From the NCBI GenBank assembly GCA_018003035.1, contig JAGNEX010000003.1, forward strand, positions 14,845-78,844: 64,000 nucleotides of DNA, in the 5' to 3' direction. The DNA is from Acidimicrobiia bacterium (GTDB lineage Bacteria > Actinomycetota > Acidimicrobiia > IMCC26256 > JAGNEX01). Position numbers and translations under genes: made by a program. Below are positions 5,893 through 58,528 of this stretch, piece by piece; within the stretch, counting starts at the first letter, position 1, and each line of letters opens with the position of its first letter. A model generated the notes under the pieces. The model saw nothing but the letters and a program-made list of their open reading frames with translations. It ran no database searches and was not told the origin of the DNA.

Positions 5893-5938
5893 TAATAAGA
5901 AGGGCGGCTCCTCGAGACGGGAGCCGCCCTTCTTATTA
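5893..5938. terminator. strong bidirectional terminator after tRNA-Tyr
   Basis: A perfect 19-bp inverted repeat (5893-5911 with 5920-5938) with an 8-base loop. The GC-rich centre is flanked by AATAAGAA/TTCTTATT, giving a U-rich tail on either strand. It lies 10 bases after tRNA-Tyr. Confidence 0.9.
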
Positions 5939-9107: not shown

Positions 9108-9176
9108 CGCGTATGTCCAAATCAATCCGTCGGATGCAACCCGTAAATCAGTGCTGTCAAAGCGAGGTTGAGGACA

Positions 9177-10364
9177 ATGGCAAAGGAAACCTTCGAGCGT
9201 AATAAGCCCCATTTGAATATTGGGACTATTGGGCATATTGATCATGGTAAGACGACGTTGACTGCTGCGATTACGAAGGTGTTGTCGGATCGCGTTGATG
9301 GTGTTGCGTTTACTGCGTTTGATCAGATTGATAAGGCTCCTGAGGAGCGTGAGCGTGGTATTACGATTTCGATTTCTCATGTTGAGTATGAGACGGAGAA
9401 TCGTCATTATGCGCATGTGGATTGTCCGGGGCATGCTGATTATGTGAAGAACATGATTACGGGTGCTGCGCAGATGGATGGCGGTATTTTGGTTGTTGCG
9501 GCGACTGATGGGCCGATGCCGCAGACTCGTGAGCATGTGTTGTTGGCGCGTCAGGTTGGTGTGCCGGCGATTGTTGTTGCCTTGAATAAGGTTGACATGG
9601 TTGATGATGAGGAGATCCTTGAGCTGGTTGAGCTTGAGGTTCGTGAGTTGTTGAGTGAGTATGAGTTCCCGGGTGATGATTTGCCGGTGGTTCCTGTTTC
9701 GGCGTTGAAGGCGTTGGATGGGGATTCGTCGTATGGGGACAAGATTATGGAGTTGATGGCTGCGGTTGATGCGTATGTGCCGGAGCCTGAGCGTGATGTT
9801 GATCGTCCGTTTTTGATGCCGATTGAGGATGTGTTTTCGATTACGGGTCGTGGGACGGTTGTGACGGGTCGTATTGAGCGTGGTGTTGTCCACGTGGGTG
9901 ATGAGATTGCGATTGTTGGTATTAGGAATACTCCTAATACGACGTGTACTGGTGTGGAGATGTTCCGGAAGCTTCTTGATGAGGGGCGTGCTGGGGACAA
10001 TGTGGGTGTTCTTCTTCGTGGTACGAAGAAGGAGGATGTTGCTCGGGGTCAGGTGTTGGCGAAGCCTGGTTCGATTACTCCGCATACGAAGTTTGAGGCT
10101 CAGGTGTATGTGTTGACCAAGGATGAGGGTGGTCGTCATACGCCGTTTTTTGATAATTATCGTCCGCAGTTCTATTTCCGTACGACTGATGTTACGGGTC
10201 AGGTGAAGTTGCCTGAGGGTACGGAGATGGTGATGCCGGGTGATAATACGGAGATGACGGTTGAGTTGATTGCTCCGATTGCGATGGATGAGGGTTTGAA
10301 GTTCGCGATTCGTGAGGGTGGCCGGACGGTTGGTGCTGGTCGAGTCACCAAGATCATCAACTAG
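9177..10364 (+). CDS. tuf: elongation factor Tu, copy 1
   Basis: A 395-residue GTPase that brings aminoacyl-tRNA to the ribosome. The GTP motifs are GHIDHGKT (19-26), DCPGH and NKVD; the three EF-Tu domains follow at full length. ATG at 9177 has GAGGTTGAGG upstream; an in-frame TTG at 9168 is less likely. The coding sequence appears identical to the copy at 26258. Codon use is very unlike neighbours: by my count 52 of the first 100 codons end in T and 5 in C. The first about 7 and last about 6 codons look host-like. It lies between tRNA-Met and rpmG, a place like that of tufB in enterobacteria. Confidence 0.98.
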
Positions 10365-10510
10365 CCGACGCCGAGTTACCGGCCCAAGCCGACCAGGTCA
10401 AAGCCGAATAGAAGAGCCGATCGTTGTGTTGGGGCGGTCATTCCGTCCCAACCGATCACTATGGCCCGGCTGCTGACAGCTCGGGTGATCCGTAAGAGGA
10501 AGGGCCAAAA

Positions 10511-10672
10511 ATGGCCAGTGACAAGCGAATTTTGGTCACGCTTGAGTGCACCGAGTGCAAAGAGCGCAACTATTCAACCCGCAAGAACAAGATCAACAAC
10601 CGTGAGCGGATTGAGTTGAACAAGTACTGCAACCGCTGCCGCACTCACCGTAACCACAAAGAAACTCGCTAG
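10511..10672 (+). CDS. rpmG: 50S ribosomal protein L33, zinc form
   Basis: 53 residues starting MASDKRILVTLECTEC and ending THRNHKETR. Two CxxC pairs (CTEC and CNRC) make it the zinc-ribbon form. AGGAAGGG lies upstream of ATG. It is downstream of tuf copy 1 (146-base gap) and 8 bases before the ECF sigma frame, so all three may share a transcript. Confidence 0.95.
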   Translation: MASDKRILVTLECTECKERNYSTRKNKINNRERIELNKYCNRCRTHRNHKETR

Positions 10673-10680
10673 AGGTTCCG

Positions 10681-11349
10681 GTGGTAGCCCAGTCGGAGCG
10701 GCCTCGTCGAGAGATCTCCCGCCCCCCGGTGCTGCCGCCGACCCAGATTCCGGAAGTTTCATCGTCGATACCCACCCTGTCGCGGGGTGGGTATCGACGC
10801 GTGAGCGACAGCGTGTTGGTCGAAGGTGCAAAGACGGGCGACACCACCTCTTTCGATGAGCTCGTGCGCCGACACTCGCCAACTGTTTACGCACTGGCAT
10901 TGCGATTAACCCGCAACGAAGAGGAAGCCAAAGACGTCGCCCAAGAGTCGTTCGTGCGGGCATGGCGGGCCGTCGGGCGTTTCCGGGGAGACGCTCGGTT
11001 CAGCACGTGGATGTATCGCATCACCGCAAACACCGCGGCGAGTGCGCTGGGCCGGACCTCCCGGACGATGGCGCATCCGCTCGATGACCAGATCGAGCAG
11101 TTGTGTGACGCTACGCCAGGTCCTGAAGCGGTTGCTGAGGGGCGCGACCTGCACAACCGAATACAGCAGGCGGTTTCAGAATTACCGACGAAGTTGCGGG
11201 CGGTGATCACCCTCCGCGAGCGCGATGGGCTTGCCCACGAAGCAATCGCTGCCGAACTCGGCATATCGGTCGCCAACGCCAAGATGCGCCTCCACAGGGC
11301 GCGCACTGCTCTCCGCAGCCGTTTGAATGCCGGGGACCGAGCGCTCTAA
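10681..11349 (+). CDS. ECF-type RNA polymerase sigma factor
   Basis: Region 2 is visible in FDELVRRHSPTVYALALRLT through FRGDARFSTWMYRIT, and region 4 in LPTKLRAVITLRERDG followed by the helix-turn-helix HEAIAAELGISVANAKMRLHRAR. The length is 222 residues from GTG 10681, or 182 from GTG 10801; the extra 40 residues are Pro-rich and not sigma-like, so 10801 is a serious alternative. A perfect inverted repeat ends one base before 10801. No anti-sigma gene is adjacent. It occupies the interval between rpmG and tRNA-Trp that holds hadABC in mycobacteria. It would direct polymerase to an unknown regulon. Confidence 0.88.
   Translation: MVAQSERPRREISRPPVLPPTQIPEVSSSIPTLSRGGYRRVSDSVLVEGAKTGDTTSFDELVRRHSPTVYALALRLTRNEEEAKDVAQESFVRAWRAVGRFRGDARFSTWMYRITANTAASALGRTSRTMAHPLDDQIEQLCDATPGPEAVAEGRDLHNRIQQAVSELPTKLRAVITLRERDGLAHEAIAAELGISVANAKMRLHRARTALRSRLNAGDRAL
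10763..10799 (+). repeat. perfect 15-bp inverted repeat at possible sigma gene start
   Basis: 10763-10777 pairs perfectly with 10785-10799 around a 7-base loop. The right arm holds GGGTGGG, the only candidate ribosome binding site for GTG 10801. In RNA this would be a stable hairpin that could hide that site; as DNA it could be an operator. No T run follows, so it is not a standard terminator. Confidence 0.7.
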
Positions 11350-11473
11350 ACAGCGTTTGGCGGCCTTCCGCCACGGGGCTGTTCGCGGCGTTTGCAAACT
11401 CGGGTGGGATAAGGCCTGTGGAAACTGATAGCTTTGTTGTTTCTGCCTTGTACGCGTATGAGGCAGATGACCA

Positions 11474-11546
11474 AGGGCAGTAGCTCAGCTGGTAGAGCAC
11501 CGGTCTCCAAAACCGGCGGTCGGGGGTTCAAATCCCTCCTGCCCTG
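11474..11546 (+). tRNA. tRNA-Trp (CCA)
   Basis: The acceptor AGGGCAG pairs perfectly with CTGCCCT. The anticodon arm is CCGGT-CTCCAAA-ACCGG with anticodon CCA. CCA is not encoded at the 3' end. It lies 61 bases before secE, the arrangement usual in actinobacteria. Confidence 0.96.
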
Positions 11547-11607: not shown

Positions 11608-11904
11608 ATGAACCGAGAATCTAAGCGAATGATGGAACGCCAAGAGCGGCGTTCCCAGGGCGGCAGCGGTGGCGACCGCAGGCGACAAGCAGCAGCAGTT
11701 GCTGGTGGCGGTGGTCGTCGCGGCGGTTTCTCGGTCGGCGAATACTTTTCGGGCGTTCGTTCCGAGATGCGGAAAGTGGACTGGCCCACGCGCGGCGAGG
11801 TCATCAGCTCCAGTGCGGTGGTCGTCGTGGCCGTTCTTGTGCTGACGGCATTCGTCTACGGGGTCGACTACTTAGCGGCCAAGTTCGTGCTCTGGCTGTA
11901 CTAA
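11608..11904 (+). CDS. secE: preprotein translocase subunit SecE
   Basis: 98 residues. A basic, Gly/Arg-rich N-terminal tail (1-40) is followed by the conserved amphipathic region FSGVRSEMRKVDWPTRGEV and one membrane segment (about 66-92). It clamps the SecY channel. The neighbours nusG and rplKA downstream match the standard bacterial order. Confidence 0.96.
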   Translation: MNRESKRMMERQERRSQGGSGGDRRRQAAAVAGGGGRRGGFSVGEYFSGVRSEMRKVDWPTRGEVISSSAVVVVAVLVLTAFVYGVDYLAAKFVLWLY

Positions 11905-43552: not shown

Positions 43553-43592
43553 GTGTGGGCACGACCATTTTGGTCGTGCCCACACTTATTTA
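43553..43592 (+). terminator. strong terminator after rplQ
   Basis: A perfect 15-bp stem (43553-43567 with 43571-43585), loop TTT, then TTATTTA. It separates the alpha operon from truA. Confidence 0.88.
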
Positions 43593-58493: not shown

Positions 58494-58528
58494 ACGGAGG
58501 CCGTGCCCTAAGGCACGGCCTCCGTTTG
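58494..58528. terminator. terminator between ectC and tRNA-Pro
   Basis: A perfect 14-bp stem (58494-58507 with 58512-58525), loop CTAA, with TTTGT after it on the plus strand. It lies between the convergent ectC and tRNA-Pro and could serve both. Confidence 0.8.

Follow-up and report, generated by a model that had tools for sequence, protein, structure and literature searches.

ECF (group IV sigma-70) factors contain sigma2 and sigma4 domains only, with a linker of under 50 residues. They typically come with a co-transcribed cognate anti-sigma factor, for instance of the ZAS type, and with an autoregulated promoter carrying an AAC/GTC-type pair of elements, although these two traits are no longer considered defining (PMC8103513). 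Canonical intrinsic terminators are stable, G+C-rich stem-loops between transcription units that are followed by a U-tract. Hairpins lacking the U-tract and located within ~50 bp of an upstream stop codon ('I-shaped' hairpins) have been proposed as mycobacterial terminators; the same review also cites opposing in vitro data, as well as work in which the mycobacterial polymerase requires a U-tract (PMC12288462), and whether such hairpins terminate transcription is disputed. Lastly, RNA thermometers and SD-masking leaders hold the SD within a stem, which in thermometers is masked in the cold and free when warm, while riboswitches and attenuators rely on alternative pairing. Here, we describe an actinobacterial locus that shares traits with each of these systems and matches none of them completely.

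The locus lies in a 64-kb window (the whole stretch of Acidimicrobiia DNA that was analysed) and reads tuf, rpmG, an inverted repeat, a stress-type ECF sigma factor gene, tRNA-Trp, secE, nusG and rplK. The genes that concern us are:

9168 to 10364, + strand: tuf (EF-Tu), assigned from its ORF translation; heads the upstream highly expressed unit
10511 to 10672, + strand: rpmG (ribosomal protein L33; Pfam PF00471, E=3.4e-19), with stop codon TAG at 10670-10672
10801 to 11349, + strand: ECF sigma factor gene from its homologous start GTG 10801 (182 aa; Pfam Sigma70_r2, E=1.4e-19, and r4_2, E=6.8e-15), the start being aligned with a TTG in loci L002 and L003
11474 to 11547, + strand: tRNA-Trp, the conserved right border of the sigma/anti-sigma module
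11608 to 11904, + strand: secE, assigned from its ORF translation and synteny

The sigma factor conforms to the ECF group in its two domains (PF04542 at residues 61-128 and PF08281 at residues 159-211 in a 222-aa reading) and its short linker. The tuf region (9168-10364) differs from the rest in composition, with ~51% GC and a GC skew near 0.4 against 61% GC for the window and with many T-ending codons, possibly reflecting foreign origin or unusual codon selection.

At E <= 1e-30, the sigma protein has matches in 32 of the 58 genomes from the order and in 226 of the 395 from the class. We compared ~130 orthologous Acidimicrobiia loci, checking synteny around the sigma genes with tblastn; all relatives in the collections used come from other genera and families. 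The class-wide order is rpmG, ECF promoter, sigma, anti-sigma (zf-HC2 plus membrane helix), tRNA-Trp and secE, and was noted at loci L001-L030, L047-L090, L145-L153 and L162-L221. With its promoter of the form GTAAC-N18-GTCnnA, this module is undescribed in the open-access literature that was searched. Two families depart from it. Several strongly reduced genomes (~0.6-1.1 Mb) of family f22 (G061, G066, G077, G080, G092 and others) retain the sigma gene and, at first look, almost no further ECF-like candidate; the two of their loci that were read (L195 and L210) have a diverged partner and no canonical promoter. In family f44 (L177, L184, L185, L202, L220), the sigma gene lies near tRNA-Thr/tRNA-Met, rpmG was undetected, and the downstream partner has shrunk to a short protein that resembles a membrane helix and lacks the zinc motif.

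At the window locus, the space between rpmG and the sigma gene is occupied by a feature of a different kind:

10763 to 10799, no strand assigned: perfect 15-bp inverted repeat with a 7-nt loop, giving a 17-bp RNA stem-loop on the + strand; a U-tract on neither strand

Its arms, at 10763-10777 (CGTCGATACCCACCC) and 10785-10799 (GGGTGGGTATCGACG), are complementary at 15 of 15 positions (100%), and in RNA the stem grows to 17 bp, including one G-U pair. A 91-nt segment containing the stem folds at -43.4 kcal/mol (z = -3.9; none of 200 shuffles was equally stable) and a 45-nt segment at ~-34 kcal/mol (z = -5.4), which makes it a stable G+C-rich stem-loop of the kind found in intrinsic terminators. 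In 12 Markov-1 simulations of the 64-kb window, no perfect stem of at least 13 bp (loop 3-12 nt) arose, whereas the real window holds three of at least 15 bp, this repeat among them. It is the sole strong hairpin between rpmG (stop 10672) and the sigma gene. The first-pass annotation had described a perfect 15-bp repeat ending one base before GTG 10801, and both statements hold, with 10799 as the last base of the right arm; the repeat is far beyond chance. The 3.04-Mb genome contains the full palindrome a single time, ruling out a dispersed repeat or mobile element, and single half-sites with up to one mismatch occur at background frequency genome-wide. An Rfam search matched tRNA-Trp alone and returned no riboswitch or other family for the hairpin, which we therefore do not assign to a known RNA family.

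Beside the repeat, the locus shows two losses, the first of which concerns the anti-sigma gene. In the relatives, the sigma gene is directly followed, usually with an overlap of ~10 nt, by the gene for a ~120-residue protein with a conserved H-x3-C-x2-C motif and a C-terminal hydrophobic stretch (zf-HC2 matched in 4 of 10 members). A profile of this protein matches 119 of the 129 testable orthologous loci and finds matches in 32/58 genomes of the order. Anti-sigma loss in other genomes was rejected: at those profile-missed loci that were inspected, a reading frame persists in diverged or short form, and several of these frames encode a CxxC or a membrane helix. L029 ends at the contig edge. 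A search of the whole window genome gave no match to the profile (the assembly is 93% complete with the locus intact, so a copy on missing sequence is possible). The place of the partner is taken by:

11350 to 11473, + strand: gap from the sigma stop to tRNA-Trp, 124 nt, with no ORF or recognisable relic

This gap (about 124-125 nt) is the shortest of 118, the median being 451, and the window genome has the only testable locus without a partner gene among the ~130 compared. By this comparison, the anti-sigma gene was lost specifically in this lineage.

The second loss is that of the autopromoter. Of 130 orthologous loci, 106 carry a GTAAC-N17-19-GTCnnA motif (at least 8 of 9 positions) just upstream of the sigma gene. 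The start codon follows 6-7 nt past this motif in about half of those examined, so the sigma mRNA is probably leaderless there; motif (GTAAC-N18-GTCnnA) and start together offer a testable promoter for a conserved Acidimicrobiia ECF system. The same scan did not find the motif at the window locus:

10756 to 10784, + strand: place matching the relatives' ECF autopromoter; at best a degenerate GTTTC-N18-GTCgcG that does not exceed chance

The GTTTC-N18-GTC at 10756 was rejected as a degenerate promoter since chance matches in the gap equal it, and no downstream or sigma-70-type promoter was recognised for the window sigma. Nor did the genome yield a regulon with convincing targets, GTAAC-N18-GTCnnA having 8 sites against 10 in a reversed control, without excess. 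Thus, whereas the orthologous loci resemble described ECF/ZAS modules in their AAC/GTC-type autopromoter and downstream zf-HC2 plus membrane-helix partner, the window sigma is an orphan that has neither a co-transcribed cognate anti-sigma nor an autoregulated AAC/CGT-like promoter. The perfect dyad now at the former promoter place might be a DNA operator through which a bound dimeric regulator controls sigma transcription, negatively or positively. We consider this most unlikely: perfect 15-bp arms around a 7-nt loop are a more usual feature of RNA stems, the genome has no further sites and no regulator gene is adjacent.

The sigma protein itself is divergent. In a 76-locus set it differs at 12 of the 65 columns conserved at >=90%, and every other ortholog at 5 or fewer; two of the changes, A199N and V202M, fall in the helix predicted, from the sigma4 alignment, to read the -35 box. 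In a 130-locus set, its terminal branch is the second-longest, partly from want of a close relative, and the acceleration, clear against the 76-locus set, is weaker at columns conserved at >=95% across the 130 loci. Such divergence would fit changed specificity as well as relaxed constraint after loss of the GTAAC promoter, and does not decide between them. A locus that is losing its function would account for the two losses, the long branch and the changed columns, and the palindrome would then be a chance template-switch product in a region freed from selection; the right arm shares GGTATCGA with L002 while the left arm does not. We hold such decay to be very unlikely, as the reading frame is unbroken, encodes both sigma domains and is coding-like in composition, and long perfect stems are expected to erode fast without selection.

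How the sigma gene is translated depends on which of two starts is considered:

10671 to 10683, + strand: alternative start, GTG 10681, in the sigma frame, preceded by an SD-like AGAGG at 10671-10675 that overlaps the stop codon of rpmG
10785 to 10792, + strand: GGGTGGGT, the putative SD serving GTG 10801, entirely inside the right arm; unpaired probability ~0.000 at 37 C and 0.009 at 85 C

The 40 residues between these starts are not conserved, and the relatives' alignments mostly begin near residue 40. A conserved N-terminal extension was ruled out, many relatives carrying in-frame stops just upstream. In the codon model, 10681-10800 scores -0.06, which places it at the 5th percentile of coding windows, and another of its frames scores higher. 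Moreover, the relatives' promoter motif falls inside the matching stretch, which is thus promoter DNA in these genomes, and in the nearest relatives (L002 and L003) the TTG aligned with GTG 10801 is the sole start between promoter and conserved part. For these reasons, the alignments support GTG 10801 as the homologous sigma start, in line with the first-pass annotation, which had suggested 10801 as the true start, had called the preceding 40 residues not sigma-like and had placed the ribosome binding site in the right arm, where GGGGTGGG is indeed the best anti-SD match at this start (duplex -9.8 kcal/mol). In L002 and L003, a small hairpin (ACGGG-AGTGA/G-CCCGT) surrounds the SD of the TTG start. 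Use of GTG 10801 in the present-day cell is a separate question from homology, since every RNA with both arms would form the stem and so prevent initiation at this codon. After promoter loss, ribosomes might instead reinitiate at GTG 10681, 8 nt past the rpmG stop, and read in frame through a hairpin that is incidental or slows them, giving an N-extended sigma of 222 aa. The AGAGG-5nt-GTG arrangement and the open in-frame path would allow this, and translating ribosomes are able to open a stem that an initiating ribosome cannot. Nevertheless, we find it improbable, given that the extension is unconserved and poorly coding, that 106 of 130 relatives have promoter DNA in its place, and that an open run this long is not unlikely by chance.

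With the SD inside the stem and the start beside it, the hairpin resembles RNA thermometers and SD-masking leaders, and the first-pass annotation had proposed a translational or transcriptional switch. The predicted folding speaks against this. The SD of 10801 has an unpaired probability of 0.000 at 25-45 C and stays paired up to 85 C; unlike in those leaders, the stem is unmelted at any physiological temperature and no alternative fold was seen, with no complement of at least 8 nt to either arm within 10300-11360. We therefore reject a thermometer or riboswitch. The annotation had also named the absence of paired changes among relatives as counting against its reading, and a comparable hairpin at the sigma start was found in none of them, leaving no paired changes to score. 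Hence, of the earlier interpretation, the 10801 start, the non-sigma-like extension and the lack of an adjacent anti-sigma gene (sigma stop 11349, tRNA-Trp at 11474; a lineage loss) stand, and the switch does not. Dedicated translational control could take another form, in which the stem masks the 10801 SD and start and is opened under stress by a trans factor or by upstream ribosome movement, replacing the anti-sigma factor. The stem ends one base before GTG 10801, and partner and autopromoter were lost in the very lineage that bears the hairpin; yet losses and hairpin coincide in a single lineage (n = 1), and the absence of the hairpin from all relatives, of a competing pairing partner and of an Rfam match make this form of control unlikely as well.

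A static terminator or insulator role fits better than a switch. Relatives, too, repeatedly have strong hairpins between rpmG and sigma (z<-2 in 16 of 63 loci and z<-3 in 10 of 63, the window's counted in), mostly closer to the rpmG stop than to the sigma start. L005 and L006 share a TTT-tailed stem overlapping the ECF -10, in which two double changes are compensatory, and the L145/L147/L149/L150 group has kept a U-less stem with one double change; covariation in these stems involves 2-4 sequences only and does not beat shuffles (136/500). A general hairpin enrichment on the relatives' ECF promoter was not found (mean z 0.06 in 106). Within ~280 kb of the window's own genome, there are 19 long perfect hairpins, mostly intergenic and many just past a gene end (by crude gene calls), several of them without a clear U-tract. 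Further long perfect hairpins in the window lie at 5893-5938, 43553-43585 and 58494-58525; the first and the last look terminator-like, ~10 nt past tRNA-Tyr and tRNA-Pro, respectively, and there is no T-run behind the stem at 5893-5938.

Because strong hairpins recur in rpmG-sigma gaps and the genome's own stems are mostly intergenic, often at transcript 3' ends, we favor the view that the hairpin is a static, U-tract-less terminator-like or 3'-end stem of tuf-rpmG that also silences sigma read-through translation, a view to which we give about an even chance. It agrees with a stem beyond chance that is the only strong one in the gap and leaves the SD virtually never unpaired. Like canonical intrinsic terminators, it is a stable stem-loop between transcription units, but CGTGAGCGA follows the stem on the + strand and ATGAAACTT on the - strand, neither being a U-tract, and with the U-tract missing termination is no more than putative. 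Like I-shaped Mycobacterium terminators, it is a strong G+C-rich stem without poly-U after a highly expressed gene in an actinobacterial host; unlike these, it lies 90 nt from the rpmG stop (10672 to 10763) rather than within ~50, and a single base separates it from the next gene's start, a placement expected of a translational element. If it terminated completely, sigma would go unexpressed, as neither a downstream nor a sigma-70-type promoter was recognised.

We infer that termination, trimming or insulation occurs at this stem. As a terminator-like or 3'-end-protecting structure without a U-tract, it would act in RNA form where the tuf-rpmG transcript ends, having come to adjoin the sigma start at the site of the former ECF autopromoter. 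Polymerases leaving rpmG may be partly stopped there, or Rho-ended RNA may be trimmed back to the stem. On read-through RNA, the sigma SD and start codon would be locked in or against the 17-bp stem, so the orphan sigma would stay nearly silent from the strong upstream promoter. RNA begun downstream of the left arm, at the relatives' start site, would lack the stem and have a free SD. It is conceivable, if quite doubtful, that the hairpin goes further and senses transcript origin: tuf-rpmG RNA, carrying both arms, would be terminated and blocked in translation, and RNA from sigma's own promoter, begun past the left arm, would be translated freely, an RNA logic that would have taken over from anti-sigma control upon loss of the anti-sigma gene. 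The locus thus documents the rewiring of an ECF sigma factor, with anti-sigma and autopromoter both gone and a strong hairpin between sigma and a very active operon; should the hairpin indeed silence sigma, it would be a natural case of RNA insulation in place of protein-based sigma control.
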